Origin: an uncultured Woeseiaceae bacterium
GTDB lineage: Bacteria > Pseudomonadota > Gammaproteobacteria > Steroidobacterales > Woeseiaceae
Direction: 5' to 3'
Assembly: GCA_905182415.1 (NCBI GenBank)
Contig: CAJJBK010000003.1
Span: 1 to 36,639 of the forward strand
Length of the DNA: 36,639 nucleotides
The notes under the pieces were generated by a model. The model did no database searches and was not told where the DNA came from. It saw only the letters and a list, made by a program, of their open reading frames with translations. Every line of letters begins with the position of its first letter. Position 1 is the stretch's first letter. Positions 3,971 through 20,508 of this stretch are shown in pieces. Made by a program: the position numbers and the translations under genes.

Positions 3971-5839
3971 CTAATCCTGAATCACTGAAAAAATAATTTT
4001 TGATGGGTATTGAAAAGAGTGATGAATCGTATTTTCAGCCACTATCCCAACAGTCTCATCATAATTATTACCGCCCGTATTTAAATTCCTCATATATTGA
4101 GGAAATTTACTGGATGAAATTTCAATTCTAATTTTATGTCCCTGTTTAAATACGTAACTGGTTGACATAGGTGTGGGTTTAATTTCGTATACTTTTTGTT
4201 TTTCCATAAATACCTGTTTATCATATCCATCACGATAACGAACTCGAAAAATAGTATCATCTATATTAAAAGCTCTTCCATCAGGATAAACATCAACCAG
4301 TTTTACCGTTAGATCTGTATCCTTAGCGCTTGAGGAAATATAGATAACTGGCCTGACATTGCCGGTCACTTCAAGATCTTGCTCCATTACATTCGAGCTA
4401 TAAACCAAGACATCTTGCCTAGCCTCTATACCCCGCTGATCATAACTTCCGCCTAAAGCTGCATCTTTATTGCAACATACTCCACCACCAAGTGCAGGAA
4501 CTGGATTCATGGGGTCATAAGTAAATTGATCATTTGCAGAGGGTGAACGGGCATGGTCAATCAATTCACCATCACCAAATAAACTATTAGCGCCGGCATT
4601 ACTTGCTAGAAATAATGTCATTGGCTTAGCTGTTTTTGGTGGCCAAGCATCCGCCGATTGCCATATATTCTTGCCCATTGTGTAATACTGAACTTTTGGC
4701 AATTTTTTAAAAATTTTACTTTTATCATCTTTCAGATAAAAATCAAAAAAACCAAACATTTGATCGTATAAAGGAAATGTAGCATCGCCTACGTTAAGCT
4801 CACCAACAATCAAATCTTTATCTTTTGGGATTCGATAAAACCCGCAATGTAATGTGGGTGCCATCAACATGTATTGTCCGTTTCTGACTACCTTGTCCTT
4901 ACCGTTTTCTCTGGCATGATTAAAAACCGCAAGATTAGGGCCTTGACTCACATCGAACCAACTATTAAACCAAAAAGCCGGGACATTAAATTCTTCATTA
5001 TCATGATAGAGACCCCCGTCATACCAGTCAGGATGATCTGGCGTTCTTTTCATGAGTGTTTCCATAGGTCCAGTATTTGCACCGGCATCTTTTAACCAAT
5101 CAATTGATGGCAATTTACGTAATTGTTTAATCCAATCCACCTCAGGCATGTCAGGAGCAAGATCGTATAATTTTCTTAGGCGCTGAAGATCCTCTTGAGA
5201 CATACCTGCTGGAAAACGCGGATAAATTTGTTGTTGAACACTGTATAACCACACAGAAAATAAAGTTTGGTGAACGCCGCCTTTGAACCAGTTACCTTGT
5301 TCATAGAATTCACCCACACGACCAATACCCGCACCAGATGCCATTGGTACCATGGCTTTATGTGCCGGATGATCCTGTGATGCAAGTGCCATCTGCCACT
5401 CAGCAGAAGAGGAGCAGCCTAAAGTGCCAACATTTCCATTTGACCAAGATTGATCAGTAAACCAACTTAACGCATCAAATCCATCAGTACGGGGATTACC
5501 TAAAATCTCCCACTCGCCTTCTGAATAATAACGTCCTCTTTCATTTTGAATTGCTACAGCATAACCACGCTTAACCGCTTCATGGGTCCACTGTAATGTT
5601 GCCCCTCGAATCTCATTAAAATTATATGGGGTTTTAATAAAGATAAGCGGTAAATCTTCATTAATATCTTTGGGGCGGTAAATATCTGTAGCCAGGCGGA
5701 TACCATCACGCATTGGTACCATGACCATAGTGTCAGCCTCAGAAATAGATTCTAAATCACTTAATTTAATCTCATCTGCATTTAAAAAAGAAAAGCAGCA
5801 TAAAAACAACATACTTTGAACTAATTTAATCAATCTCAC
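3971..5839 (-). CDS. Secreted CocE/NonD-family (S15-like) hydrolase
   Basis: Alpha/beta hydrolase of the CocE/X-Pro dipeptidyl-peptidase group, which cleaves esters, amides or N-terminal acyl-peptide bonds. The start is GTG at 5839 with GAGG 8 bases upstream. Residues 1-21 form a signal peptide (MRLIKLV then a hydrophobic run ending FLNA-D), so the product is exported. The nucleophile elbow is GCSSS with S143 as likely nucleophile; the family usually has G-x-S-Y-x-G, so the loss of the second glycine is mildly atypical. APTLHCG may carry the catalytic His. The C-terminal third, starting near the YDPMNPVPALGGG motif, is the family's jelly-roll domain. At 622 residues it is full length. It lies 104 bases downstream of the amidohydrolase gene and converges with the M14 peptidase gene. 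Substrate cannot be read from sequence. Confidence 0.85.
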   Translation of the reverse strand: MRLIKLVQSMLFLCCFSFLNADEIKLSDLESISEADTMVMVPMRDGIRLATDIYRPKDINEDLPLIFIKTPYNFNEIRGATLQWTHEAVKRGYAVAIQNERGRYYSEGEWEILGNPRTDGFDALSWFTDQSWSNGNVGTLGCSSSAEWQMALASQDHPAHKAMVPMASGAGIGRVGEFYEQGNWFKGGVHQTLFSVWLYSVQQQIYPRFPAGMSQEDLQRLRKLYDLAPDMPEVDWIKQLRKLPSIDWLKDAGANTGPMETLMKRTPDHPDWYDGGLYHDNEEFNVPAFWFNSWFDVSQGPNLAVFNHARENGKDKVVRNGQYMLMAPTLHCGFYRIPKDKDLIVGELNVGDATFPLYDQMFGFFDFYLKDDKSKIFKKLPKVQYYTMGKNIWQSADAWPPKTAKPMTLFLASNAGANSLFGDGELIDHARSPSANDQFTYDPMNPVPALGGGVCCNKDAALGGSYDQRGIEARQDVLVYSSNVMEQDLEVTGNVRPVIYISSSAKDTDLTVKLVDVYPDGRAFNIDDTIFRVRYRDGYDKQVFMEKQKVYEIKPTPMSTSYVFKQGHKIRIEISSSKFPQYMRNLNTGGNNYDETVGIVAENTIHHSFQYPSKIIFSVIQD

Positions 5840-5889
5840 GCTTTGAACCTCATTGTAATAAATATCTTATTAATATTAGTAGAAGCGAG

Positions 5890-5917
5890 ATTATACCTAT
5901 TCTTAGTGACTGTTGAA
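5890..5917 (-). promoter_or_regulatory. Possible sigma70 promoter for the CocE-type hydrolase
   Basis: On the minus strand a perfect TATAAT (5890-5895) lies 16 bases downstream of TTCAAC (5912-5917), a poor -35. It lies in the 104-base gap between the amidohydrolase and hydrolase genes, about 50 bases before the GTG start. In AT-rich sequence a lone TATAAT is weak evidence. Confidence 0.35.
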
Positions 5918-5943
5918 GTGAAATTATTTAATGCACAATTAGT

Positions 5944-7359
5944 CTATAAAAGTTCTTCGGGGTTGATTACAACCCCTTTTGATATAACTAAATTAATTCT
6001 ACGTGTGTTGCTTATATCTATCAGTGGATTAGCGTCCAGTAACACCATATCGGCCACTTTATTACTATCAATTGTCCCCATAGTTTCTTCCAGAGAGAAA
6101 AATTCAGTGGGCCTTATTGTGGCTGAATACAACGCGTCAATGGGCTTCAATCCAGCTTCAACAAGTAACTCGAGTTCTGTATGTAAACTATAACCAGGCA
6201 AGGCCATACCAATGGGTGTATCCGTCCCAGCACCTATGGGAACCCCCCGTTTATGCATATCTCCAACTAATTTAATACTCCATCTAGCAAAATCTGAGCC
6301 ATACCAATCTTGATCTTTTTGTTTTTCAAACCAATCCTCTGTAGCAGCAATCCATTTCGCTTGAGCGCCCATAGGCACCTGCATAAGCACTTCATTCCAG
6401 TCCTCTCTTTCATAACTTGGCCACATTGAAAATGAATTTAATCTTAATGTGGGTACTTGTATGGTGGCTTTTAAATTATCCAATGTTTGATTGCATCGCT
6501 GCTCATCATAATTTTTTATTGCAGGTAATCTTTGCAGCTGATGAAGGCTTGAGCGTAAAGTTAAACCTGCACCCTCTATATGAGAATTTAATCGAGATAA
6601 ACGCTCTTCATGTAACGTTGCGGAATTAATTGCACAATCTAATTCAACATTACGTAAATGCTCCATTGAATCTACTTTGGGCCCAGCCATGCTTGCTGTC
6701 ATTGAAAGTGGAATATGAGCAGCAACAGGTAATTTAAATTTTGTGGCTGCATCTGTAAGGGCGGAAAAAACCTCAGGAGTAACCATTTCGTAAATCTTTA
6801 TAAAATCTACGCCCTCATTTTTAAGTATTTCAATTTTTTCATTAGCCATCTCAACCGTAGCGTTTTGTGTACCAATCTCAGGCACTAAACCACCATCATA
6901 AACGACAAATTTTCCATCCAGTAAAGGACCACTGAAAAAGACACGAGGTGCAAGGGCATCGGGTGTGCGCATCTTTTCGATAACCGGCCTTAACTTATTA
7001 ATTAGACCGCCGGTATCCCTAACACTCGTGATGCCGTAAGACAAAAATAAAGACGGCATATCTTCTGTAAAAGCATCATCATAAGTTAAATGAACATGCA
7101 TATCCCATAACCCTGGAATTAGAAATTTTCCCGTTCCATCAATAATTTTATTAACATCCAGAGAATTATTGGTTGTTGCAGCAACACTGATAATACGATC
7201 CTTCTCAAAGACAACAGTTTGTCGCTCACGCAAACCATTTTTAGCGTCGATGACAGTAACATTGGTAATTGCTATCTCTTCCGAAGCCTCTTGGTTGAGG
7301 CACGCATTTAGCGAAAAAAGCATCATGGCAGTTAGTACAATATAACGAGTCGTCTTCAT
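5944..7359 (-). CDS. Lipoprotein metal-dependent amidohydrolase (imidazolonepropionase-like)
   Basis: Member of the amidohydrolase superfamily, which hydrolyses amide, lactam or peptide bonds with a metal centre; this subgroup includes exported Xaa-Pro/Xaa-Arg dipeptidases. The start at 7359 is chosen because AAAGGA lies 10 bases upstream and translation then begins MKTTRYIVL, a lipoprotein signal with a lipobox-like LNAC (C20). An upstream in-frame start at 7422 would bury this signal. From 7359 the protein has 471 residues. Metal ligands are H88 and H90 in DMHVH; later AAHIP and SMEH supply His residues and GAGTD the aspartate. The C-terminus has the usual VADMVLLDANPL closing strand of the composite domain. 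It is probably anchored in the outer membrane or periplasm. With the neighbouring hydrolase and peptidase it suggests peptide scavenging. Confidence 0.85.
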   Translation of the reverse strand: MKTTRYIVLTAMMLFSLNACLNQEASEEIAITNVTVIDAKNGLRERQTVVFEKDRIISVAATTNNSLDVNKIIDGTGKFLIPGLWDMHVHLTYDDAFTEDMPSLFLSYGITSVRDTGGLINKLRPVIEKMRTPDALAPRVFFSGPLLDGKFVVYDGGLVPEIGTQNATVEMANEKIEILKNEGVDFIKIYEMVTPEVFSALTDAATKFKLPVAAHIPLSMTASMAGPKVDSMEHLRNVELDCAINSATLHEERLSRLNSHIEGAGLTLRSSLHQLQRLPAIKNYDEQRCNQTLDNLKATIQVPTLRLNSFSMWPSYEREDWNEVLMQVPMGAQAKWIAATEDWFEKQKDQDWYGSDFARWSIKLVGDMHKRGVPIGAGTDTPIGMALPGYSLHTELELLVEAGLKPIDALYSATIRPTEFFSLEETMGTIDSNKVADMVLLDANPLIDISNTRRINLVISKGVVINPEELL

Positions 7360-7437
7360 ATAAGCTGTTTCCTTTAAGAGAAAATACACCGTATCAACAA
7401 TATCATTATAAAAATATATCATATCTGTTAATAATTA

Positions 7438-7450
7438 TATTGACTCAATA
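7438..7450. promoter_or_regulatory. 13-bp perfect palindrome in the divergent amidohydrolase/DmdA-like region
   Basis: TATTGACTCAATA is a 6+1+6 perfect palindrome in the 150-base region between two divergent genes (starts 7359 and 7510). It contains a TTGACT hexamer that could be a -35 for the plus strand, but the hexamer 17 bases on (CATGCT) is a poor -10. It could be an operator; palindromes this short also arise by chance in AT-rich DNA. Confidence 0.25.
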
Positions 7451-7509
7451 ATCAACAATCGGCATGCTTCGTTTTTGTTTCAAAATTAACTATTAGTAAG
7501 AGAACGATA

Positions 7510-8670
7510 ATGGCTTCAGATAATTTCAAACCACTCATTAGCATAGGTTCAAGAGTTCGTAAATCTCCTTATTTTGACTCCACCAAACGTTGTGGTGCAA
7601 AAGCGTTCTCCATCTACAATCACATGTATATGCCAACACTCTATACCAGTGTTATCGAAGAATATTGGAGCATGGTTAATGATGTGGTGATGATTGATGT
7701 TGCCGTTGAGAGACAAATCGAAATCAGTGGTCCTGACGCACATAAATTAGTTCAATTTATTACTCCTAGAGACATATCAAATTGTGATATGGGCAAATGT
7801 TATTATGTTCTTTTAACTGGCGAGGATGGAGGCATCATTAATGATGCTGTTTTGTTAAGACTAGGAGAAGAACAATTTTGGATCTCGCCGGGCGATGGAG
7901 ATGTTCTGCTATGGATTGAAGGGGTTGCCATTAATTCTGGAATGAATGTAAAAGTTTTCGAACCAGATGTCTCACCCTTGCAAATGGGTGGCCCAAAATC
8001 ACCGCATGTTATGCATGCACTGTTTGGGGATCTAGCTATAGATCTTGGTTATTATCGGGCTGTTCAAACTGAAGTTAATGGAATTCCCTTAATACTTGGC
8101 AGAACAGGCTGGAGCGGTGAATTGAGCTATGAACTCTATCTCCAAGATGGGTCTCGTGGCAACGAATTATGGGATCTGGTTGAAAAAGCAGGAGAAAAAT
8201 ACAATATTAAACCAGCGGCCCCACAGTTAATTAGAAGCATTGAAGGTGAGATGCTTTCATATGCATCTGACATCGGTCGTTATGACAATCCTTATACAAT
8301 TGGTATGGGCAGATTGGTTAATCTAGACCGTCAAGATGACTTTATTGGTAAAGAAGCATTAAAGAAAATCAACGCTGAAGGGCCAAAAAGAAAACTCGTT
8401 GGTATTGAGATTGATGGGGACCCTATTACGTCTGCCCCAGAACATCTTTGGCCGGTCAAAGATTCTGATGATGTTATTGGGCACATAACCAGATGTATAC
8501 ATTCGCCAAGATTAAATAAGAATATTGGTTATGCTAATGTTCCAGTTGATTATGCCGATATTGGTACAAAAATATCAATAGATTCGCCTCAAGGAACACT
8601 TGGTGCGATAGTTTGTGATAAGCCCTGGTTTCCAGCAGAGATCAAAATCGATAAAGACGGCATCGTCTAA
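7510..8670 (+). CDS. DmdA-like / GcvT-family tetrahydrofolate-dependent methyltransferase
   Basis: GcvT-superfamily protein of 386 residues; members move a one-carbon group from an amine or sulfonium substrate to tetrahydrofolate. It carries a start like that of DMSP demethylase DmdA (SRVRKSPY, then IYNHMYMPT at about 35-43), AVERQIEISGPDA (65-77), VQFITPRD, FWISPGDGDVLLW and EPDVSPLQMGGP. These resemble DmdA more than the glycine-cleavage T protein as I recall those families. However, at 198-210 it reads RTGWSGELSYELY, where true DmdA has a W-S-x-Q-G-G-F/Y-E type sequence, so it may be a sister clade with another substrate. It has no lipoyl-protein partner (gcvH/gcvP) nearby. It stands alone on the plus strand, 3 bases from the stop of the convergent acyl-CoA dehydrogenase gene. 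The family is secure; the substrate is not. Confidence 0.75.
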   Translation: MASDNFKPLISIGSRVRKSPYFDSTKRCGAKAFSIYNHMYMPTLYTSVIEEYWSMVNDVVMIDVAVERQIEISGPDAHKLVQFITPRDISNCDMGKCYYVLLTGEDGGIINDAVLLRLGEEQFWISPGDGDVLLWIEGVAINSGMNVKVFEPDVSPLQMGGPKSPHVMHALFGDLAIDLGYYRAVQTEVNGIPLILGRTGWSGELSYELYLQDGSRGNELWDLVEKAGEKYNIKPAAPQLIRSIEGEMLSYASDIGRYDNPYTIGMGRLVNLDRQDDFIGKEALKKINAEGPKRKLVGIEIDGDPITSAPEHLWPVKDSDDVIGHITRCIHSPRLNKNIGYANVPVDYADIGTKISIDSPQGTLGAIVCDKPWFPAEIKIDKDGIV

Positions 8671-8673
8671 CGA

Positions 8674-10443
8674 TTAAAAATCTGTACTTTCAAACTCAGA
8701 TAGAATTGAACCACCATCAACTATCTGCTTTTCTAGGCTAAGAGTTTCAGGCAAAACATGCAATACAAAGAATTTTGCTAGTTTTCTTTTGCTGCTATAA
8801 AAATTTCCTTTTTTATGAAGGATCGTTACCAAAATATCTGTCCACAAAAGAGCGATTATATTCAATGAAAAATAACGAGTATAGGCTGATGCTGCCCCCA
8901 TTGCAGATAACGGGTTAGTATTAACTTGTTCCATAATCCAGGCCGTGACCTTTTTAAAACGGCCAAAAGACTCTTTAGTCTTATCAAGAACGAAATCAAG
9001 CTCTGCATCACCCGCTGAATTCCCTGCAAATAATGAAGTCTCCCACTCCTCAATAAAGCCTTCGATTAACTGGTGATTCTTCAGCATGAGCTTTCGAAAC
9101 ACCAAGTCAGCCGCTTGAACCTCGTTGGTTCCCTCATAAATTGTTGTAATTCTGCAATCTCTTACTAGTTGCTCCATTCCATAGTCATGAACATACCCAT
9201 GACCTCCAAATACTTGCTGTGCATTTAAACTGCTTTCCATCCCAAGATCAGATAGATAACATTTCACCACCGGAGTTAATAATGAAACTATATTATCAGC
9301 CCTTTGCTTTGAAGATTGATCTTTAGATTTCTGCATCACATCAACGTGATAACCAACATAAGTAGCAAGGGCTCGGCCACCTTCAATTTGGCTGCGCATT
9401 CTTAGCAGCATCCTTTTTATTTCTGGCTGTTCAATAATGAGATCGGCTTTTTTATTGGTTTGCTTTACTCCTGGCACCCTACTTTGACGCCTTTCTTGAG
9501 CATAATCTTTTGCATTTTGATAGGCGATATCTGCAAATCCTAAGCCTTGAATTCCTACCGTAATTCTTTCGGCATTCATCATTGTGAACATAGCGGCTAA
9601 GCCCTTATTTTCTTCACCAATGAGGTAACCTTCCGCATTATCAAAGTTTAAAATGCAAGTTCCAGAGCCTTTTATACCCATTTTTTTCTCAATTGAACCT
9701 ACTGACACACCATTTAATAATTCTGTTGCCTTTTCAGCTTTAAGTTGATTACGAGGAACCATAAATACGCTAATTCCTTTGCTTCCCTCTGGAGCTCCAT
9801 CGAGCCTTGCTAGTACCATATGTAAAATATTTTCGGTTAAATCTTGATCGCCCGAAGTGATAAATATTTTTGTGCCATTAATTAGATATCTGCCATCCTT
9901 ATAACTGGCTTGAGTTTTTATTAGGCTCAAATCAGTTCCACAATGTGGCTCAGTTAAGCACATAGTACCTGACCATTCTCCTGAGGCTAATTTTGGTAAA
10001 TAGGCATCTTTAATGAATTTTGAAGCGCTATTTAATAATAATTGATAGGCGCCATGACTGAGTTCCGAATACAATTTGAATGATAAATTACAGGCACTTA
10101 ACATCTCATCAAAATAAAACTGAACTAATTTAGGCAATCCACTCCCGCCATGTTCAATATTTGCATCAATTCCAGTCCAGCCAGCTTCTATATATAGTTT
10201 ATAAGCTTCTTTAAACCCTGGCGGGGTTATTACTTTGCCGTCTATTAATTGGGCGCCAATTTTATCGCCAACACTATTTATTGGAAGTAATTCTGAGGCA
10301 CAGAACTTTCCAGCTTCACCAAGAATAAAACTAATATCTTCAATCTCTATGTCTTCATGGCCATCTAATTGATTGATATTTTTTATACCAATCCAGTCTT
10401 TAAGCAAAAATGTAATATCTTCAATGGGGGGCCTGTAAATCAT
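8674..10443 (-). CDS. Acyl-CoA dehydrogenase of the DmdC / long-FadE clade
   Basis: FAD enzyme that makes a 2,3-enoyl-CoA from an acyl-CoA. At 589 residues it belongs to the roughly 600-residue clade with an extra C-terminal domain, which includes 3-methylmercaptopropionyl-CoA dehydrogenase DmdC and pseudomonad fatty-acyl-CoA dehydrogenases. Visible features: N-terminal RPPIED, PPGFKEAYKLY, EHGGSGLP (97-104), flavin-binding MCLTEPHCGTDL (161-172), KIFITSGDQDL, FGGHGYVHDYG, and the catalytic base in IYEGTNEVQ (E437). It is the last gene of the operon metA-metY-hydrolase-FadN-like-ACAD, 10 bases after the preceding stop. Automatic annotation often calls this clade DmdC; sequence alone does not separate methylthio from ordinary acyl chains. 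Confidence 0.9.
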   Translation of the reverse strand: MIYRPPIEDITFLLKDWIGIKNINQLDGHEDIEIEDISFILGEAGKFCASELLPINSVGDKIGAQLIDGKVITPPGFKEAYKLYIEAGWTGIDANIEHGGSGLPKLVQFYFDEMLSACNLSFKLYSELSHGAYQLLLNSASKFIKDAYLPKLASGEWSGTMCLTEPHCGTDLSLIKTQASYKDGRYLINGTKIFITSGDQDLTENILHMVLARLDGAPEGSKGISVFMVPRNQLKAEKATELLNGVSVGSIEKKMGIKGSGTCILNFDNAEGYLIGEENKGLAAMFTMMNAERITVGIQGLGFADIAYQNAKDYAQERRQSRVPGVKQTNKKADLIIEQPEIKRMLLRMRSQIEGGRALATYVGYHVDVMQKSKDQSSKQRADNIVSLLTPVVKCYLSDLGMESSLNAQQVFGGHGYVHDYGMEQLVRDCRITTIYEGTNEVQAADLVFRKLMLKNHQLIEGFIEEWETSLFAGNSAGDAELDFVLDKTKESFGRFKKVTAWIMEQVNTNPLSAMGAASAYTRYFSLNIIALLWTDILVTILHKKGNFYSSKRKLAKFFVLHVLPETLSLEKQIVDGGSILSEFESTDF

Positions 10444-10453
10444 GTAATTTTTC

Positions 10454-12778
10454 TCAATTTCTTAGTGGTTTGCCGTAACTAAGCATATGTTGAATGCGGC
10501 TTTTGGTTTGTTCAGTTTTAGCCAAGGTCAAAAAAGCTTTTCTCTCCAGAGCAAATAAGTCATCTTCATTCATCACGGTACCGGCATCTACATCCCCACC
10601 AGTAACAATTCGAGCAATTTGTGTGCCCGTAGTCACATCATGCGGAGTTAAGTAACCTTTTGTGTGAGCTTTCTGTAACCAATTTTGCATTTCTTGCCAA
10701 ACTTCTCTGCCTGGCATAATGAAATTATCGCGGTAGGTTGGCTTATAATCTTTCGCTAATTCTTGTATTGCATTTACAGCTGTATCTAACAATCTATCGC
10801 GATTCATCACAAAACTATCTATTCCCTCTCTAAACATCGCTAATTCTTTTGCCTCTAATGGAGATTGTGCTGTTTTACCATAACCCACATTCATGAATGT
10901 TGACCACGCAGCTTCTGTTTCATTTCCTTTAATATCTCGCCATCGATATAACAATTCTTTAACACCACCACCACCAGGAACAACTCCTACTAATGATTCA
11001 ACCAAGCCCGTCACTGAGTTTGCATGATAAACTGTCATGTCAGTACTCAAAACCACTTCAAAGCCGCCACCAATAGATAGACCTGATGGTGCTGATATCA
11101 CTGGTATATTAGAGTATTTCATTTTTTTGACTGTTTTTTGAAAATGGCCAAGAAAACCATCTAGTCCAATCCAATCTTGAGAGTCAATAAAATTTCCAAT
11201 AGCCTCAAGATTTACTCCGCATGAAAAATGCGAAGCATCATTATGGATGATAAGGCCGCTGTAATTTTCTTCTGCGTGTTTTACTGCAGCACCTAAGAGC
11301 TCCATTGAGTCTGTATCTAGTGCGTTGGCTTTACTGTGAAATTCAACCATGCCAATATCATTATTAATTTCGTAATAACTAGCGGCGTTGTTTGTTAAAA
11401 CTGGATCAAGAGTTTTTCGCTCTTCTGTAAATCTCCTGAGCCCATCATCACGCTGGATTCTTGTATAGGATCCTTCTGCTGTTAAATATTCGAGATGCCT
11501 TTTATTAACTCTATAAAAAGTTTTCCCTGAGGCCATTTTTATGATCCAAGGAATATCTCTTCCTTCTTGTTCTAGCCTGGAAATAAAATTATCCACACCC
11601 AACTTATCCATCATCTCAAATGGACCCTGCGCCCAGTTATAGCCAAGCTTCATTGCATCATCTATGGCGACGAGTGATTTATTAACATCTGGAACCAAGC
11701 TGGCCGCATAACAAAATGTGTTTGATAAAATCTCCCAAGCATATTGGGCATATTTACTATTCCCATCTAGTAAAAGAGTAAAATCATTTTTTTGTTCAGC
11801 CTCAATAGCGATCGCTGGTTTTTCAAAACTAAAATCTCGATACATAAAATCATCAAAATTAAGGGTTTGTTTACTTGCACTATCTTCAGGATCCATAAAA
11901 CGATAGAAACCACCTTTCAACCCTTTGTTACCTTTCAATCCCTCATCCATCATTCTTTTCATAATTGGTATTTCATCTGATACCTCGTGAAATACATCAT
12001 CTTTTGGCAATATATTGATCAAGCTTTTAGCAACATCGCTCATTAGATCGATGCCAATAAGATCATACAAACCAAACACACCAGTTTTTGGAATACCCAT
12101 TGGTCGCCCAAAGATAGAGTCAGCCTCTTCAGGCCTTAGGTCGAGCTTAAATGCAGTATGAAGTGCCGTTTGAATTGCAAAAACACCGACTCGATTTCCT
12201 AAGAAGCCTGGCGTGTCATTGCATAGCACAATACCTTTACCCATATTTTCTTCATTGAATTGCGCAAGGCACTGGATCACCTCTGGGCTGGTTAACTCGC
12301 CTTTGACAATCTCTAAAAGTTGCATGTATCGAACTGGATTAAAATAATGAGTAATAGCAAATTCTTTTTTAAATTGATCTGACATACCATCGACCAGCAA
12401 TGAAATAGGAATTGTAGATGTATTGGACGAAACAATAGATCCTGGGCGCCTTATATCATCAATAGTCTTATACAATGCTTTCTTAAGCTCTAATCGCTCC
12501 ACTATAGCCTCAGCAATCCAGTCTGATTCAGCTATTTTATGCATATCGTCTTCAATATTGCCTATGGTAATTCTATCCTGAATATTTTTATGCAATAGCC
12601 CTGGCTGTTGTTCATCTAATAATCTCTCTAGTGCTCTTTCGCAAACCGAATTTCGGTTCCCTTCTTCGCTAGGTAGGTCCAACAAAAGAACCTCTATACC
12701 AGCATTTGCCAGTTGACCGGCAATACCAAGCCCCATTGTCCCGGCACCAATAACTGATGCTTTTTGAATTTTATACAT
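10454..12778 (-). CDS. FadN-like fused 3-hydroxyacyl-CoA dehydrogenase / enoyl-CoA hydratase
   Basis: Bifunctional beta-oxidation enzyme of 774 residues that hydrates an enoyl-CoA and oxidises the 3-hydroxyacyl-CoA with NAD. Domain order is dehydrogenase first, crotonase last, as in Bacillus FadN/YusL and opposite to E. coli FadB. The NAD site is GAGTMGLGIAG (11-21); the catalytic dyad is H144 and E156 in THYFNPVRYMQLLE; the helical dehydrogenase domains run to about residue 440. The crotonase domain (about 470-690) has GGGFE (E574) and GLVESLVGVVPGGGG (E594), so both hydratase glutamates are present. The gene is 5 bases after the alpha/beta hydrolase and 10 before the acyl-CoA dehydrogenase. 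The usual thiolase partner is absent from the window. Confidence 0.92.
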   Translation of the reverse strand: MYKIQKASVIGAGTMGLGIAGQLANAGIEVLLLDLPSEEGNRNSVCERALERLLDEQQPGLLHKNIQDRITIGNIEDDMHKIAESDWIAEAIVERLELKKALYKTIDDIRRPGSIVSSNTSTIPISLLVDGMSDQFKKEFAITHYFNPVRYMQLLEIVKGELTSPEVIQCLAQFNEENMGKGIVLCNDTPGFLGNRVGVFAIQTALHTAFKLDLRPEEADSIFGRPMGIPKTGVFGLYDLIGIDLMSDVAKSLINILPKDDVFHEVSDEIPIMKRMMDEGLKGNKGLKGGFYRFMDPEDSASKQTLNFDDFMYRDFSFEKPAIAIEAEQKNDFTLLLDGNSKYAQYAWEILSNTFCYAASLVPDVNKSLVAIDDAMKLGYNWAQGPFEMMDKLGVDNFISRLEQEGRDIPWIIKMASGKTFYRVNKRHLEYLTAEGSYTRIQRDDGLRRFTEERKTLDPVLTNNAASYYEINNDIGMVEFHSKANALDTDSMELLGAAVKHAEENYSGLIIHNDASHFSCGVNLEAIGNFIDSQDWIGLDGFLGHFQKTVKKMKYSNIPVISAPSGLSIGGGFEVVLSTDMTVYHANSVTGLVESLVGVVPGGGGVKELLYRWRDIKGNETEAAWSTFMNVGYGKTAQSPLEAKELAMFREGIDSFVMNRDRLLDTAVNAIQELAKDYKPTYRDNFIMPGREVWQEMQNWLQKAHTKGYLTPHDVTTGTQIARIVTGGDVDAGTVMNEDDLFALERKAFLTLAKTEQTKSRIQHMLSYGKPLRN

Positions 12779-12783
12779 GTGTT

Positions 12784-13596
12784 TTAGCTCGTTGGGTTGT
12801 TAGTAAAGATAAATGTCTTTAATAAGTCTCGACATTGATTGGGAGTTTCTAATGGAACCATATGTCCGCTTTCCTGGATAATCTCAATATTTGTCGATGA
12901 TGGTAGAGTTTCTGCTAAAGCCATAGTCGACTTACGTGGTGCCATTTTATCTTTTCCACCTATTATTAACTGACAAGGAGCTTTGATATTACTGGCAGCT
13001 TTTTTGCCATCCTTGTAATTATTGCATGCATTTAAATCAGCAAAAAGTTCATTTGGCACATTACCTTGCATAATTTTATATCCACCGGCAATCATAGAGT
13101 TTCCGGGGATTGTCCCTTGATGCATATGCCCAGCCTTATCAAAACACCAAGACATCATTTTATCGATAGCGTTCCTTGGTTTATTTTCTGCGGCGTCCAG
13201 CAAAAAAGAATTTACTGGGGTCTCATATCCACTGGCAATAAAAGATACGCTTTTTACTAACTCGGGAAATTTTGATACATATTCCATTGATACTAAGCAC
13301 CCTTGAGAGTGGCCCACTACAGATACCGCGGAGGCTTGAATTTCAATAATGACATCATTTACCCAAGTGGCCATTTCCTCGATACTTTCAAGCGGTGGCC
13401 CATCAGAATGTGTGTGCCCTGGAAAATCTAAGCAGAGAACAGAATACTTTCTAAATGCAAAGAAACGAGAATGTAGGCCCCAAAATGTATGATCTAAGCC
13501 GCTGCCATGCAGAAAAAGTACGACAGGTTGATTTTTCTCAAAAGGTTTACCACCAGTGGATGCAAATACTTTTTTCTCATTGACGGTAAGATACAT
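12784..13596 (-). CDS. Alpha/beta-fold hydrolase
   Basis: Cytosolic alpha/beta hydrolase of 270 residues with an intact triad: S97 in GHSQG (95-99), D216 in GGKDKMAP and H245 in ESGHMVPLE. The oxyanion region is FLHGSGLDHTFW (28-39). The ATG overlaps the metY stop by one base (TAATG), so translation is probably coupled, and the FadN-like gene starts 5 bases after its stop. Position between methionine synthesis and acyl-CoA oxidation genes suggests an ester, lactone or thioester substrate, but the family is too diverse to say which. Confidence 0.88.
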   Translation of the reverse strand: MYLTVNEKKVFASTGGKPFEKNQPVVLFLHGSGLDHTFWGLHSRFFAFRKYSVLCLDFPGHTHSDGPPLESIEEMATWVNDVIIEIQASAVSVVGHSQGCLVSMEYVSKFPELVKSVSFIASGYETPVNSFLLDAAENKPRNAIDKMMSWCFDKAGHMHQGTIPGNSMIAGGYKIMQGNVPNELFADLNACNNYKDGKKAASNIKAPCQLIIGGKDKMAPRKSTMALAETLPSSTNIEIIQESGHMVPLETPNQCRDLLKTFIFTNNPTS

Positions 13597-14888
13597 TAGA
13601 TAAATTTCTTGGCAGCACGAAAGCCATTATTGAAATCTTGTGTTATATCAGTAACATTTTCTATGCCTACAGATATTCGTATCATATCTTCTGTAATACC
13701 AGCTGCGACGAGCGCCTTAGCATCAATCCTAGAATGGGTCGTGGTGGCTGGATGAATAATTAATGTCTTTGCATCCCCCACATTTGCCAAATGAGAGGCT
13801 AACTTCACGTTTTCAATAAACGCCTGCCCTGCATCTCGCCCACCTTTAACACCAAAAGTGATAATTGATCCTGCGCCCTTTGGCATATACTTCTTAGCAA
13901 TGTTATGACTGTTATGATCAGGCATATCTGGATGATTAACCCAAGAAACCTGCTCATGACTATCAAGATATTGAAGTATTTCTTTTGTATTAGATAAGTG
14001 GCGATCCATTCTTAGGGATAAGGTTTCTATTCCTTGCAGTAACAAAAATGCATTCATCGGGCTCATCGAAGGCCCAATATCCCTCATTGCTTCAGCACGA
14101 ATTCTTGTAGCAAAAGCGCTTGGTCCAAATTCTTCCCAAAAATTAATGCCCGAGAATGGCGCATACGCTTCGGTCAAAGTTGTATATTTATTAGTTGCTC
14201 CCCAATCAAAATTACCGCCATCTACGACAACCCCTCCTATTGAGGTTCCATGGCCTCCCATCCACTTAGTGAGTGAGTGGACTATGATATTGGCCCCATA
14301 ATCAAAACAACGACATAAGTAGGGAGTGTTAAAAGTTCCATCAATCATCAATGGTACATGATGTTTTTTAGAGATTTGTGCGACTGACTCTATGTCCATT
14401 ACAGACAGCCCAGGATTACCAATTAATTCACCAAAAATAATTTTTGTATTGTCTTGAATAGCCGCTTCAATCGCATTTAAATCCGTTGGGTCAACAAAAG
14501 TAGTTGTAATTCCAAATCTCGGCAATGTGTTCTTTAGCAGACTAATATTACCGCCATACATATTTGCTGAGGCAACAATATGATCGCCTTGACTCACTAA
14601 TGCTGTGATTGCACAAAATACCGCGCTCATGCCTGAAGCCACACAAACTGCCGCTGAACCGCCTTCAAGAGCTGCAACTCTTTGCTCTAAGACGCCCACA
14701 GTTGGGTTAGAAATACGATTATAAACATGGCCACCACGCTCCATATTAAATAAAGAAGACGCCGTATCCGTATCTGAAAAAACATAAGAAGTAGTTTGAT
14801 GAATGGGCTGAGCCCGTGAACCAAATTCTGGATCGAGCGTCTGTCCAGCATGAAGACTTAAAGTATCAAATGAAAAAAAATCAGACAT
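13596..14888 (-). CDS. metY: O-acetylhomoserine sulfhydrylase (MetY-type), PLP-dependent
   Basis: Cys/Met-metabolism PLP enzyme of 430 residues. The MetY group joins O-acyl-homoserine with sulfide to give homocysteine, or with methanethiol to give methionine directly. The N-terminus LSLHAGQTLDPEFGSRAQPI and the following QTTSYVF, RISNPTVGVLE and ALEGGSAAVCVASGMSA are typical. PLP binds K208 in HSLTKWMGGHG. Length (about 430 rather than about 385) and the long insert with FSGINFWEEFGP near 245 favour MetY over MetB/MetC/MetZ. It is 70 bases downstream of metA and overlaps the hydrolase start, so it is in that operon. A TTGACT hexamer is in the metA-metY gap but has no convincing -10 partner. 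No methionine synthase is present in the window. Confidence 0.92.
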   Translation of the reverse strand: MSDFFSFDTLSLHAGQTLDPEFGSRAQPIHQTTSYVFSDTDTASSLFNMERGGHVYNRISNPTVGVLEQRVAALEGGSAAVCVASGMSAVFCAITALVSQGDHIVASANMYGGNISLLKNTLPRFGITTTFVDPTDLNAIEAAIQDNTKIIFGELIGNPGLSVMDIESVAQISKKHHVPLMIDGTFNTPYLCRCFDYGANIIVHSLTKWMGGHGTSIGGVVVDGGNFDWGATNKYTTLTEAYAPFSGINFWEEFGPSAFATRIRAEAMRDIGPSMSPMNAFLLLQGIETLSLRMDRHLSNTKEILQYLDSHEQVSWVNHPDMPDHNSHNIAKKYMPKGAGSIITFGVKGGRDAGQAFIENVKLASHLANVGDAKTLIIHPATTTHSRIDAKALVAAGITEDMIRISVGIENVTDITQDFNNGFRAAKKFI

Positions 14889-14958
14889 TGTTTTAATTTT
14901 TGCTTTTATTAGTTATTTACTTGTTACATATAATAAGACAGTCAATCTTCGATCGCCA

Positions 14959-16029
14959 CTATATCTTGATGTCTAATGGATTTTTAGGATCAACTCCATC
15001 CATATATTGCTTCAATCGGTCATGACTAGTGAGCCCATAAACTAAGCCTAGCCAATTATTGAATATCGCCTTTCCTGTATCTCCCCATGTATTATCGATA
15101 CATGAATCTAAAGCACTTTCTGGAAACGAAGGAAGGGTCTTTTTTTTATCCCTGCATTCATTAAAATTATTAACAAAAGCATCAATTATATCTTGAGCAT
15201 CATTATTGAAATAATGCTCAGGTAATGGAGGAAGCTCATTAATATCGTTCTCCATATAACGAGTTATTTCTCTTTTGTATTCTTTTAATAAACTATTTAT
15301 ATCGTATTCAGGGTGCCCTTGAAGATAAACAACACGAAACTTATCTCGACTAACTGCAATATGCGCTCCTGCCTCTTCACTTGCCGCTAAAACAGAAAGA
15401 CCCGCTTTCAGAAACTGCTGTGAACTAATCTCATTATATCTAGAGTGAGGTGCATCAAAACGAGTATTAATATTACGCATCAATGGGTGATTTTTTTCTA
15501 TAGTTTGATGGCTATATACTCCCCATTTCTTGTTCTCAAGAGGAGCTCGATCTATGTCATATAATTGCTTTACAATGGCGTGAGTTGCCAGACAAGAACA
15601 TAAAGTTGATGCCACATTTTCCAATGACCACTCCATCACTTTTGTAAGTGGCTTCCAAAAAGGTTCGTCAGTCAGTTGAGGTTGTTGAACATTCGCGCCT
15701 GAAATAATTAAGGCGTCAAGACCCTGTTTTTGCAGTTCTTCAAAAGTAAAATAGTGCTGTTTGATATGCTCGGCAGCCTTATCGCTCCTAGGCAGCCCTG
15801 GCAATGAAAACGGATATACATAAAACTGTGCTATTTGATTGCAGTTGCCAACTAGCCGAATAAATTGATTTTCTGTTGCTGCTAAAGCAGCATCAGGCAT
15901 CATATTCAATAAACCAATGTGTAATTCACGAATATCCTGTCTCACTGCTCTTTCTTGAGTGAGCACCGTATGACCTTCGCTTGCTAAGCGAGTAAATGTA
16001 GGTAACGTATTGTGAGCTACTAATGGCAT
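14959..16029 (-). CDS. metA: Homoserine O-acyltransferase, MetA family
   Basis: First step of methionine synthesis: acylation of homoserine with acetyl-CoA or succinyl-CoA. The 356-residue protein has the MetA hallmark ELHIGLLNMMPDAALAATE (35-53), catalytic C146 in CSCLATHA, FDAPHSRY (191-198) and GHPEYD with H239 and E241. It is longer than E. coli MetA (about 309) at both ends. In an ungapped alignment to E. coli MetA from memory, the residue known to steer donor choice (Gly111 for succinyl, Glu for acetyl) is Q115, so the donor cannot be assigned by that rule. The adjacent MetY suggests acetyl. It is the first gene of the five-gene operon, separated by 154 bases from atpC. Confidence 0.93.
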   Translation of the reverse strand: MPLVAHNTLPTFTRLASEGHTVLTQERAVRQDIRELHIGLLNMMPDAALAATENQFIRLVGNCNQIAQFYVYPFSLPGLPRSDKAAEHIKQHYFTFEELQKQGLDALIISGANVQQPQLTDEPFWKPLTKVMEWSLENVASTLCSCLATHAIVKQLYDIDRAPLENKKWGVYSHQTIEKNHPLMRNINTRFDAPHSRYNEISSQQFLKAGLSVLAASEEAGAHIAVSRDKFRVVYLQGHPEYDINSLLKEYKREITRYMENDINELPPLPEHYFNNDAQDIIDAFVNNFNECRDKKKTLPSFPESALDSCIDNTWGDTGKAIFNNWLGLVYGLTSHDRLKQYMDGVDPKNPLDIKI

Positions 16030-16066
16030 ATCAAATAATTATCTTCGGCTTAATTAATTTATTGCC

Positions 16067-16092
16067 TTGTAAAAATACAATTAACATACAAT
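16067..16092. promoter_or_regulatory. Cluster of TTGTA/TACAA half-sites upstream of metA
   Basis: TTGTA (16067-16071) and TACAA (16076-16080) form an inverted repeat around AAAA, and a second ATACAAT copy (16086-16092) follows the first (16075-16081) at an 11-base, one-helical-turn spacing. The cluster lies 38 bases upstream of the metA ATG. It does not resemble the MetJ box AGACGTCT. It may be an unknown operator, or chance in AT-rich sequence. Confidence 0.22.
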
Positions 16093-16183
16093 GCTACTCC
16101 CGTAACATTATAAAATACTAGAATATTTATATTATTGAAACTCTATCATTGATTAATGATATGTCTTTTACAAAAACAAATTA

Positions 16184-16600
16184 TTATTTGATGCCTTTCA
16201 ATTTTTGTGCTGCCCTATATCTTGCATTAGCTTCAGCTAATTCTGCTTGCGCGCGTTTGATGTCGGTTTCTGCAGAAGCGCCTTTTAAGGCCTCTTCAGC
16301 CTGTCTTTGTGATTCTTGGGCAGCGGCTTCATCAAGTTCATCACCACGTAATGCCGTGTCTGCCAATACTGTAACTAGATGCGGCTGAACCTCTAGCATA
16401 CCACCTGTAATATAGAAAAAATGTTCTTTTCCATCTACATCTTGAACCCTTACATCACCTGGCTTAAGGGCTGTTAGGAGAGGTGCATGCCTTGGGGCGA
16501 TACCAACTTCTCCCATTTTTGCGGGAGCATAAACCATAGTTGCTTCACCACTGTAAATTTCACCCTCAGCTGAAACAATATCAATTTTAATGCTAATCAT
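16184..16600 (-). CDS. atpC: F1 ATP synthase subunit epsilon
   Basis: Central-stalk subunit that couples the gamma rotor to the c-ring and can inhibit ATP hydrolysis. It has 138 residues against 139 in E. coli. The N-terminal beta-sandwich reads IKIDIVSAEGEIYSGEA and has GEVGIAPRHAPLLTALKPG; the C-terminal helical hairpin is Ala/Glu-rich (EAAAQESQRQAEEAL). It is the last gene of the atp operon, 24 bases after atpD. Downstream, at 16145-16160, ATCATT-GATT-AATGAT could fold, but there is no GC core or T-run, so I see no clear terminator before metA and read-through is possible. Confidence 0.97.
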   Translation of the reverse strand: MISIKIDIVSAEGEIYSGEATMVYAPAKMGEVGIAPRHAPLLTALKPGDVRVQDVDGKEHFFYITGGMLEVQPHLVTVLADTALRGDELDEAAAQESQRQAEEALKGASAETDIKRAQAELAEANARYRAAQKLKGIK

Positions 16601-16624
16601 AATTAGTATCTCGTTTCAATGAAA

Positions 16625-18010
<1,386 letters not shown>

Positions 18011-18056
18011 TCATTTCCTTTGCGACGTAATTACCGTCGTCATTTTAATTAAATTT

Positions 18057-18929
18057 CTATCCCGAAACAGCGGCTGCACCACCGACTATTTCTGAAATTT
18101 CCTGCGTAATAGCGGCTTGTCTCGCTTTATTATAGACAAGCTGTAATTTATCAATAATGTCACCTGCATTATCTGTTGCCGATTTCATTGCCACCATTTT
18201 TGCTGCCATTTCACAGGCAATATTTTCAGTCGCTCCACGATAGACTTGAGATTCTATGTAACGCATTAATACACCATCGAGCAAATCAATCGCATCAGGC
18301 TCATAAATATAGTCCCAATGCGTTTGAAGAGAATCTGAATCCTCATTAATTGTACTAACTGGTAATAAAGTATTTATTTTAGGGTTTTGATTCATTGTGC
18401 TAACAAATTCATTATGAGCTAAAAAAAGTTTATCTATTTTTCCTTCATTATATGAGTCCAGCATAATTTTAATTGCGCCGATAAGGTCACTAGCTTGAGG
18501 GCGATCCCCTAAATTTGTTGCTGTTCCAACTACTTTTCCACCTAACCTTTTGAAAAATTGAACAGATTTCGAGCCAACCAATACCAAATCAACCTCTATT
18601 TTCTTTTCTTGATAAGCAGACATTTCAGCAATTACACGTTTAAATAAATTTACGTTGAGTCCGCCACAAAGACCTTTATCGGTTGAAATTATGATAATTC
18701 CTACTCTTTTTGTTTCTCGTTCTTCTAGAAAAGGATGTTTATAGTCAGGGTTGGCTGCGCCAAGATGGCCAATAACTTTTCTAATACGCTCCGCATAGGG
18801 CCGAGAAGCATTCATCTGTGCTTGTGCTTTGCGAATTTTACTGGCAGCAACCATTTCCATTGCACTGGTAATTTTTTGCATGTTTTTAACACTACGAATT
18901 TTATTTAAAATTTCTTTATCGCCAGCCAC
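18057..18929 (-). CDS. atpG: F1 ATP synthase subunit gamma
   Basis: Rotor shaft of F1, 290 residues (E. coli 287). The N-terminal helix has [21 protein letters not shown] with the conserved KI.KAQ segment, [11 protein letters not shown] lies at about 82-92, and the C-terminal helix contains [13 protein letters not shown] and [19 protein letters not shown]. The start is GTG at 18929, with TAGGA 7 bases upstream; the N-terminus aligns with the family from this codon. It sits between atpA and atpD in the standard order. Confidence 0.98.
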
Positions 18930-18966
18930 AATATTTTCCTAGGTCAGAACTAATAATATTCAAAAG

Positions 18967-20508
18967 TTAATAAGCGCCTTTACTGGCAAAATCATCACAT
19001 AATTTTTTCATGGCTGTTTCAATTTCATCACTGAAATCACCAGATGTATTAATTGTGTCCAGGAGTTCACTGGCATTTGATTTTGCATAATCATGCAAAG
19101 CGGCTTCATAGTCTCCAACTTTAACAACATCAACATCATCCAAATAACCTTCATTAACCGCATATAAAGAAAATGCCATCTCAGCTACAGAAAGAGGCGA
19201 ATATTGTTTTTGTTTCATCAATTCGGTAGCACGTTGTCCTCGCTCAAGCTGCTTTCTTGTTGCTTCATCTAAGTCTGAAGCAAATTGAGAGAATGCAGCA
19301 AGTTCACGATATTGAGCAAGCGCTAGTCGCACACCGCCCCCTAATTTTTTAATTATTTTTGTTTGTGCGGCGCCACCAACTCGAGATACTGATAAACCAG
19401 CATTAATTGCCGGCCTAATTCCAGCATTAAAAAGATCTGTCTCTAAGAAAATCTGTCCATCTGTAATCGAAATTACATTAGTTGGCACAAAAGCAGATAC
19501 ATCGCCAGCTTGTGTTTCAATAATAGGTAAAGCAGTTAAAGAGCCCGTTTTGCCTTTTACTTTGCCACCGGTAACAGATTCCACATGTTCTGCATTTACT
19601 CTTGAAGCACGCTCTAGTAGGCGCGAGTGTAGATAAAACACATCCCCAGGATACGCCTCTCTTCCTGGTGGGCGTCTGAGCAATAACGATACTTGACGAT
19701 AAGCCCAAGCTTGTTTAGTCAAATCATCAAAAATAATTAATGCATCTTCGCCTTTATCTAAAAAATACTCTCCCATAGTGGTGCCTGAATATGGAGCAAT
19801 ATACTGCATAGCTGCTGAATCGGCGGCGGCGGCGGCAACAACGATGGTATGATCCATCGCCCCTTCTTCTTCGAGTTTTCTCACAACTCCCGCAATAGAT
19901 GATGATTTTTGACCTATTGCAACATAGATACATTTTATACCAGTATTTTTTTGATTAATTATGGCGTCAATTGCAACCGCTGTTTTTCCAGTTTGTCTAT
20001 CACCAATTATCAATTCGCGTTGACCTCGACCAATCGGTACCATTGCATCGATTGCTTTTAATCCTGTCTGAACTGGCTGGTCTACCGATTTTCTTTCAAT
20101 AACACCAGGTGCTACTTTTTCAATTGGTGCTGTTTCATCAGTATTTATTGCGCCTTTTCCATCAATTGGATTTCCTAAAGCATCAACAACTCTACCTAAT
20201 AGAGCTTCTCCAATTGGTACTTCTAGGATTTTACCGGTCGTTTTAACCGTGTGGCCTTCAGAGATATGCTTGTAATCACCTAAAATCACTGCACCTACTG
20301 AATCTTGTTCTAAGTTCAGAGCCATCCCAAAAGTATTCTCTGGAAATTCAAGCATTTCTCCATAACGCGCATCTGTCAATCCATGGATACGAACAATACC
20401 ATCAGTCACTCCAATGACGGTTCCAATATCGCGTGCTACAGCAGAGGTTTCGAAATTCTCGATACGCTCTTTAATCAATTGGCTGATTTCAGAAGCTTTT
20501 AAAGACAT
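18967..20508 (-). CDS. atpA: F1 ATP synthase subunit alpha
   Basis: Non-catalytic nucleotide-binding subunit of F1, 513 residues, the same as E. coli. It begins with [14 protein letters not shown], which contacts the delta subunit. The P-loop is GDRQTGKT (169-176), and the alpha signature [14 protein letters not shown] is present. The ATG follows a good AAGGAAAG ribosome site. It is 17 bases after atpH. A run of alanine codons near 19819-19840 encodes AAAAADSAA, normal for this subunit. Confidence 0.98.

Follow-up and report, generated by a model that had tools for sequence, protein, structure and literature searches.

A putative DMSP-type demethylation and methanethiol-recapture operon in a Woeseiaceae bacterium

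A six-gene locus has been analyzed in a 36,639-nucleotide stretch of DNA from an uncultured Woeseiaceae bacterium (assembly GCA_905182415.1, contig CAJJBK010000003.1, positions 1–36,639). This whole stretch, called the window, is part of contig 3 of genome G000 (1.82 Mb, 99% complete). G-, L- and f-numbers denote sampled genomes, loci and families, G000 being the window's own genome. Judged from sequence, the locus probably, if not securely, encodes a module in which dimethylsulfoniopropionate (DMSP)-type demethylation is joined to the recapture of sulfur, from methanethiol to methionine, with a FadN-like fusion protein standing in for DmdD. The reading builds on computed gene content, conservation, linkage to clear DmdA genes, preserved catalytic residues and gene gaps of the host genus. 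The data support a genetic tie between a metY-hydrolase-fadN block and genes of the DMSP demethylase family, clear DmdAs included. The genes are:

7510–8670, + strand: DmdA-like folate-dependent demethylase ("w-type"), motifs FWISPGDGD and RTGWSGELSYELY
8674–10443, - strand: acyl-CoA dehydrogenase of the FadE1/FadE2/DmdC group by PDB matches, carrying an additional C-terminal domain as in FadE1/DmdC
10454–12778, - strand: FadN-like bifunctional 3-hydroxyacyl-CoA dehydrogenase/crotonase, 774-residue fusion, Staph_FadB match
12784–13596, - strand: alpha/beta hydrolase, generic esterase/enol-lactonase-like fold
13596–14888, - strand: MetY, O-acylhomoserine (thiol)-lyase (NF006004, 648 against a cut-off of 636; TIGR01326, 590 against 495)
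14959–16029, - strand: MetA, homoserine O-acyltransferase, predicted to make the O-acylhomoserine acceptor (NF003776, 470 bits against a cut-off of 358)

An open reading frame check places all six genes as in the initial annotation, and coordinates give the same minus-strand gaps (70, -1, 5 and 10 bases). The DmdA-like and dehydrogenase genes lie tail to tail, with 3 bases between their ends, and the former is therefore outside the transcript of the operon. In scans for promoters and terminators, matches did not clearly exceed those in shuffled sequences. The initial annotation had described a candidate organosulfur module. This idea holds in that the block is tied to DmdA-family genes and the host looks dependent on reduced sulfur; the DmdA and DmdC identities do not hold in the form given there.

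Linkage of the block to DmdA-family genes across the class

The DmdA-like and FadN-like proteins were used as queries against a class-wide sample of 369 genomes. At most 5 DmdA-like and 2 FadN-like candidates were scored per genome, and absences are not firm because so few were scored (the DmdA of G449 was missed). FadN relatives are split between 46% and 42% identity, a boundary fixed after the list had been seen, though the close and distant sets are also separated in a 30-row tree by the Shimodaira-Hasegawa-like approximate likelihood ratio test (SH-aLRT 100). The G361 relative (54%) is fragmentary, lying at a contig end.

G456, G240 and G157 carry, on one strand, the genes for DmdA, MetY, the hydrolase, the FadN-like protein and an acyl-CoA ligase, in this order. 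The same order, broken at contig ends, was found in G361. In G291, a DmdA-metY pair and a hydrolase-FadN pair are split over two contig ends that match, and FadN is not followed by a ligase; in G449, DmdA precedes the FadN-like gene. The ligase follows FadN in 4 of 5 operons with canonical DmdA, and is of the PRK08162 type in the one scanned. DmdAs from G456, G240 and G157 pass the DMSP demethylase equivalog model NF009133 (471, 454 and 432, cut-off 410) and carry the motif W-S-K-Q-G-G; DmdA from G027 also passes (460).

DmdA-family matches were found in 8 of 9 close-FadN genomes other than the window's, against 16 of 359 others (p 8e-10), and in 0 of 14 distant-FadN genomes (p 2e-5 against 8 of 9); p-values overstate the association because genomes share ancestry. 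The count of 8 is that at threshold: the ninth genome is G449, whose DmdA was missed but lies next to FadN. Close FadNs co-occur with DmdA-family genes in five other families, and are linked to them in four (f169, f158, f75, f160). In contrast, an acyl-CoA dehydrogenase gene adjoins FadN in 11 of 14 distant-FadN loci, and no DmdA, operon-type MetY or hydrolase was seen in these 14 loci, among them the short L241 (3.6 kb); in L233 a MetB-like gene is found at a distance of about 3 kb. It appears that an ordinary fadN-fadE pair was the source from which this FadN branch was drawn into DmdA-MetY operons.

Conservation in the host family

DmdA-family genes were identified in 28 of 99 genomes, the window's own included (E ≤ 1e-60). 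Genes of the w type reside in 14 genomes, again including the window's own; G047, initially taken for a w genome, is excluded because its gene falls in the c clade described below. In 12 of the 14 the w-type gene lies within about 5 kb of the block metY. The arrangement varies: the gene is upstream of metA on the same strand in G011, and near a contig end in G036, where the block is on another contig; G015 has the w-type gene and no fadN, G018 the w-type gene and no block. The acyl-CoA dehydrogenase is an optional member of the operon, and in many larger genomes a MetB-like gene is found between metA and metY. Among 80 named DmdA-like loci, 13 have metY nearby, at least six being contigs already in the 14-genome set; L073 and L076 independently feature the order DmdA-like, metY, hydrolase on one strand. 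The initial annotation had counted a gene order unique to this genome as evidence against its proposal; the order recurs in the family and in other families. Such recurrence, within one family and, next to another type of DmdA, in further families, is more than chance.

Orthologous metY (≥ 76% identical) and FadN are each found in 18 of 60 genomes, 17 of them shared, and the two genes are adjacent by coordinates in 16 of these 17 (not in G016). Co-occurrence with DmdA was counted in 37 genomes, G000–G036 (FadN was not searched in G037–G060); c-clade genes, the only type in G002, were not counted as DmdA. FadN and DmdA, w-type or canonical, agree in 31 of 37 genomes (15 with both, 16 with neither): DmdA is present in 15 of 18 genomes with FadN, and in 3 of 19 without. 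The two DmdA types never coexist in one genome. The same block and this mutual exclusion suggest that they fill the same slot, as if one replaces the other. In family members with canonical DmdA, the DmdA gene lies apart from the block.

Some canonical DmdA genes in the family have, as judged by eye, neighbours resembling trimethylamine/betaine methyltransferases. In L143–L147 (G027, G029, G033, G019, G016), first residues point, around some of these genes, to MttB-type methyltransferase-like genes, to BCCT-like carriers and, in L147, to a corrinoid activator-like protein.

Neighbourhoods were clustered for 79 of the 80 loci, L079 having dropped out. A protein family with a methylenetetrahydrofolate reductase (MTHFR) domain is encoded within one or two genes of the DmdA-like gene in 13 of 79 loci, of which 8 carry Halieaceae labels (family or genera), and such a neighbour fits a 5-methyl-tetrahydrofolate (5-methyl-THF) product. 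Of two members included in a Pfam scan one reached the model (L091, 41.9 bits), and the L129 relative had no Pfam match. The loci, with w- or c-type genes, are L091, L097, L099, L100, L107, L117, L118, L120, L127, L129, L074, L075 and L077; in L129, FolD and a formyl transferase are also close to the DmdA-like gene. This arrangement recalls SAR11_1265, a DmdA relative beside metF which the authors guess to remove the second methyl of DMSP, as worded in a passage of PMC3160333.

The DmdA-like protein

NF009133 is by far the best family of the window protein (358.1 bits, below the cut-off of 410), trimethylamine N-oxide demethylase and GcvT models scoring 201 and 158. The best PDB sequence match is Candidatus Pelagibacter ubique DmdA (3tfh; 35% identity, 258 bits). 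The same enzyme is the best fold match of the predicted structure (mean pLDDT 83; Foldseek E 1.7e-40; Z 41.7), with dimethylglycine dehydrogenase (DMGDH) and GcvT folds close behind (Z 40.9 and 40.2).

A DmdA-family tree of 83 rows, from which G002c and G041c were excluded as near duplicates, was built by a quick method with SH-aLRT supports and no bootstrap. It features three clades: w, holding the window protein (25 rows, SH-aLRT 99), c (18 rows, SH-aLRT 100), and DmdA with the crystallised P. ubique enzyme (23 rows, SH-aLRT 97). Types assigned by motif agree with the tree. The clade of the window protein is sister to that of verified DmdA and separate from it. The initial annotation would have taken grouping with non-DMSP enzymes as a sign against its proposal, and a sister position, with a score under the NF009133 cut-off, goes half of that way. 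Position outside clades A–E does not by itself exclude function, since methanethiol production in a Ruegeria mutant was rescued by SAR92 DmdAs peripheral to known clades, and not by a GcvT-like one, according to the relevant part of PMC10746254.

As the initial annotation had remarked, the W-S-x-QGG motif is missing; the window protein has WSGELS, its relatives WSGE. In general, w-type proteins feature FWxSPGDGD and WSGEL, canonical DmdAs WWLSIADSD and WSKQGG. W201, S126, E208 and Y210 of the window protein align with P. ubique W197, S122, E204 and Y206. In a passage of PMC7487153 the Trp is described as DMSP-specific and Ser, Glu and Tyr as folate-binding, numbered W171, S99, E178 and Y180, which from their spacing we infer to be the same P. 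ubique residues; there, the DMGDH-like clade has Phe at the Trp position. At this position, Phe or Tyr is found in six further GcvT-type proteins of the host. Of the marks of DmdA, the best family match, the Trp and the folate residues are present; a place in the verified clade and a score over the NF009133 cut-off are not.

A second DmdA-like gene of the genome (G000:C2:213298-214398; L002, L051) belongs to the c clade. Its product is 44% identical, carries WSSELGYE and scores 364 against the NF009133 cut-off of 410. In other genomes (L112, L129, L211), neighbours of c-clade genes include OsmC, an AcuH-like crotonase and an acyl-CoA ligase, all together or in part. Five clustered GcvT-domain proteins of 807–1004 residues are encoded at G000:C5:11374-56912, of the sarcosine oxidase/dimethylglycine dehydrogenase type by length, and 9 GcvT-family matches in a genome of 1.8 Mb hint at a user of methylated amines. 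In two order-level relatives with 1.4 Mb genomes (L053 and L055, from G072 and G085) a DmdA-type gene, in which the conserved Trp is replaced by Tyr (GYSRERCYE), is directly followed by an acyl-CoA dehydrogenase gene, with a FadD-like ligase and a crotonase nearby, forming another DMSP-like cluster; the G072 protein scores 410.9 bits against 410.

The other operon enzymes and the ligase

The FadN-like protein matches Staph_FadB over residues 3–774, below the cut-off (494 against 999). The crotonase glutamates (GGGFE, GLVES/GLVET) and the His/Glu region of the dehydrogenase are kept in all 8 subfamily members inspected, out of 18. DmdD and AcuH are stand-alone crotonases, whereas here the domain is fused to a 3-hydroxyacyl-CoA dehydrogenase. 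We propose its crotonase site as the best candidate for the methanethiol-releasing step, hydration of methylthioacryloyl-CoA, the role of DmdD. The FadN-like and acyl-CoA dehydrogenase proteins are not the only beta-oxidation enzymes of the cell: a FadJ-like protein (C42) and an E. coli-type FadE (C2) were also found (thiolase was not searched).

A specific DmdC identity for the acyl-CoA dehydrogenase, as first annotated, is not borne out: the protein is closer to the fatty-acid enzyme FadE1 of P. aeruginosa (8png, 525 bits) than to FadE2 (8pns, 469) or DmdC (6ijc, 449), and at least ten copies of the operon do without it. In the part of PMC11890623 concerned, 6ijc is given as 3-methylmercaptopropionate-CoA dehydrogenase, and FadE1 is said to prefer longer chains down to about C8. 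Resemblance to FadE1 does not exclude a DmdC role, because verified DmdCs are broad-range enzymes, according to a passage of PMC5395565. The protein could act as a methylmercaptopropionate (MMPA)-CoA dehydrogenase making methylthioacryloyl-CoA.

MetY groups with the MetYs of canonical-DmdA operons (SH-aLRT 87, in a tree with only two unlinked MetYs), and is proposed to be a methanethiol-capturing methionine synthase. The hydrolase follows metY in linked loci where seen, and its catalytic set Ser97-Asp216-His245 is invariant in 15 sequences. It matches no specific named enzyme closely, only generic esterases and enol-lactonases; its substrate is perhaps a CoA thioester.

The earlier remark that no DmdB ligase is present is correct for the window. 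Elsewhere in the genome, G000:C55:40004-41134 encodes a DmdB-like ligase scoring 814.3 against the 822 cut-off of NF005426, 3-(methylthio)propionyl-CoA ligase. Its best PDB matches are 6ihk (604 bits) and 6ijb (602), which we take to be DmdB.

Sulfur and methionine metabolism of the host

The host genus is represented by 9 genomes (G000–G008), most of them incomplete. In a search of 40 genomes, no strong match to PF01507 (CysH/CysD) was found in these 9; strong matches elsewhere measure 132–200 bits. G000 has a single match under the cut-off (20.7 bits). The MetE model PF01717 matches none of the 9 genomes, and PF02574 open frames do not exceed 378 residues in any of them, against frames of at least 660 residues in 16 of 16 other sampled family members, over 1100 in 15. 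Because PF01717 is unmatched and PF02574 frames are short, the genus seems to be without both folate-dependent methionine synthases, short homocysteine methyltransferases being kept; it also seems to be without sulfate reduction (sulfite reductase was not searched). The host appears to depend on organic sulfur in reduced form. The apparent lack of CysH/CysD, MetE and full-size MetH in this streamlined genus parallels what has been reported for SAR11.

The suggestion that the operon co-occurs with loss of sulfate assimilation is not supported as a rule: in the genomes searched, CysH/CysD are missing also in many family members that lack the operon, and both occur in G015 and G016. Since operon-free family members share it, the loss is a lineage trait, background rather than proof.

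Proposed pathway

The DmdA-like enzyme would transfer an S-methyl of DMSP, or of a close dimethylsulfonium compound, to tetrahydrofolate, yielding 5-methyl-THF and MMPA. The latter would be converted to its CoA thioester, MMPA-CoA, by the DmdB-like ligase encoded on C55, and then to methylthioacryloyl-CoA by the dehydrogenase of the operon or another in the genome. In the least certain step, the crotonase half of the FadN-like protein would hydrate methylthioacryloyl-CoA and release methanethiol, replacing DmdD/AcuH, and the C3 remnant would be finished by the dehydrogenase half of the same protein and the alpha/beta hydrolase. MetA would provide O-acylhomoserine, which MetY would join to methanethiol to form methionine, a reaction published for other bacteria.

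Weighing of the evidence

Several observations weigh against a DMSP-type demethylation and recapture module. The sub-threshold score and sister-clade position of the DmdA-like protein have been mentioned, as have the soft absences, the late choice of the identity boundary and the overstated p-values of the class sample. The DmdA-like gene is transcribed towards the operon and not along with it, and the operon lacks a ligase gene. The w clade occurs also in SAR86-, Halieaceae- and SAR92-labelled loci, with metY not seen in 9 kb flanks, and thus has a life outside the operon. The acyl-CoA dehydrogenase is missing in G001, G003, G005, G019, G027, G029, G033, G035, G051 and G052. FadN occurs without either DmdA type in G004, G009 and G012 (73, 94 and 82% complete), DmdA without this FadN in G010, G015 and G018, and FadN is not beside DmdA in G016, G310, G190 and G354. 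No SAM or other methionine riboswitch was found at positions 5000–19000 of the window (two sub-threshold chance matches), nor in 8 related loci. MetY could use sulfide instead of methanethiol, and direct capture accounts for only 33% and 50% of methionine in two Ruegeria species, in the portion of PMC7157515 that deals with it. The incompleteness of most genus genomes bears on the gene gaps. PF01507 matches over the cut-off (22–29 bits) exist in five other genus genomes; most are frames of 445–470 residues, probably tRNA-lysidine synthetase.

Chance adjacency was considered and set aside, as the linkage recurs in rearranged orders and with different DmdAs. A subtler version, in which a sulfide-using metA-metY pair precedes an ordinary fadN-fadE pair and the DmdA-like gene converges on them by chance, draws on the common pairing of FadN with acyl-CoA dehydrogenases in distant loci, on the likeness of the dehydrogenase to FadE1 and on the intact look of both FadN active sites. 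It is quite unlikely, being weakened by the association of this FadN subfamily with DmdA-family genes in other families, by metY and hydrolase lying between DmdA and FadN in three intact operons, by the dehydrogenase being the part that is lost, by the lack of DmdA, operon-type MetY and hydrolase in the distant loci (the L233 MetB-like gene apart), and by the other beta-oxidation genes of the genome.

The operon logic might instead serve another substrate, the w-type enzyme demethylating MMPA, S-methylmethionine, dimethylsulfonioacetate or similar compounds and supplying the THF pool, with MetY still capturing methanethiol or some other thiol. The distinct clade and pocket motifs, the MTHFR-like neighbours in mostly Halieaceae-labelled loci that recall SAR11_1265 beside metF, and the paralog at C2:213298, which could be the DMSP enzyme, speak for this. 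The shared block and mutual exclusion of w-type and canonical DmdA favour the same substrate, and the DMSP-linked Trp is kept (for its role see the passage cited from PMC7487153); another substrate is unlikely. An aminomethyltransferase of the glycine betaine/dimethylglycine kind, acting only as a C1 supply to methionine metabolism, is very improbable. GcvT and DMGDH show the same fold with Z almost as high, the genome has 9 GcvT-family matches, and BCCT-like carriers, as seen by eye from sequence, lie near w-type genes in G015 and G018. Yet NF009133 is the best family by far, Trp occupies the position where the DMGDH-like clade has Phe and the six host proteins have Phe or Tyr, and the protein is free-standing, with no oxidase domain.

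Comparison with known systems and significance

Compared with the DmdA-DmdB-DmdC-DmdD/AcuH pathway of Ruegeria and SAR11 (dmdA-acuH-dmdB-dmdC in SAR92), the putative demethylation module shares a DmdA-superfamily demethylase, a DmdC-group dehydrogenase, a crotonase domain and a CoA ligase. It differs in the sister-clade DmdA-like protein, in the crotonase fused to a 3-hydroxyacyl-CoA dehydrogenase, in the presence of MetA, MetY and an alpha/beta hydrolase within the operon, and in the ligase encoded outside it. A passage of PMC5069961 describes Ca. P. ubique as lacking sulfate assimilation and DmdD, with MetY (or MetC) held to join methanethiol and O-acetylhomoserine; alpha/beta hydrolase (mhpC), fadD and mmgC are listed in the SAR11 dmdA region in part of PMC3160333. 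The proposed conversion of methanethiol to methionine, a streamlined cell apparently without sulfate assimilation, the absence of DmdD and an alpha/beta hydrolase near dmdA are shared with Ca. P. ubique, but SAR11 metY is under a SAM riboswitch, whereas here metY lies in an operon with metA and fadN. With FadN of the Bacillus/Staphylococcus FadB type and FadE1-type dehydrogenases the locus shares domain order, length, catalytic residues and pairing; in contrast, the FadN subfamily here is a separate clade tied to DmdA and MetY; its fixed differences, in a comparison of 18 with 12 sequences, include GGGFE instead of GGGCE and, in the HANS segment, Asn instead of Glu. SAR11_1265-type relatives share the proximity of a DmdA-family protein to an MTHFR-like gene at some loci.

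Annotations of dmdA and downstream genes in SAR86, SAR92, Halieaceae and HTCC2089 are given, with caution, in a section of PMC8371827. No report of a DmdA-metY-FadN operon was found in the open-licence literature searched. The pathway logic would be known, the gene arrangement without earlier report in that literature, with a candidate substitute enzyme and a putative sister family of DmdA.

Taken with all its parts at once, a wider proposal is tentative and somewhat doubtful: that this is a new type of DMSP-catabolic operon in Gammaproteobacteria, in which a FadN-family fusion replaces DmdD and passes methanethiol to the co-encoded MetY; that in Woeseiaceae-related oceanic bacteria the DmdA slot is taken by a DmdA-sister family; and that a lineage having lost sulfate assimilation and methionine synthase relies on it as its main route to methionine de novo.

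DMSP is a major marine source of carbon and sulfur, and the balance between methanethiol loss and methionine retention affects the sulfur reaching the atmosphere. Since SAR11 demethylates DMSP without DmdD, its methanethiol-releasing enzyme is only hypothesised; the operon points to a candidate family for this step, the FadN-like proteins, and to an adjacent capture enzyme. If true, the reading would also suggest a role for the DmdA-like family of SAR86, Halieaceae and Woeseiaceae-related genomes. The module would matter to its host because neither sulfate reduction nor the usual methionine synthases seem to be encoded in its genome.

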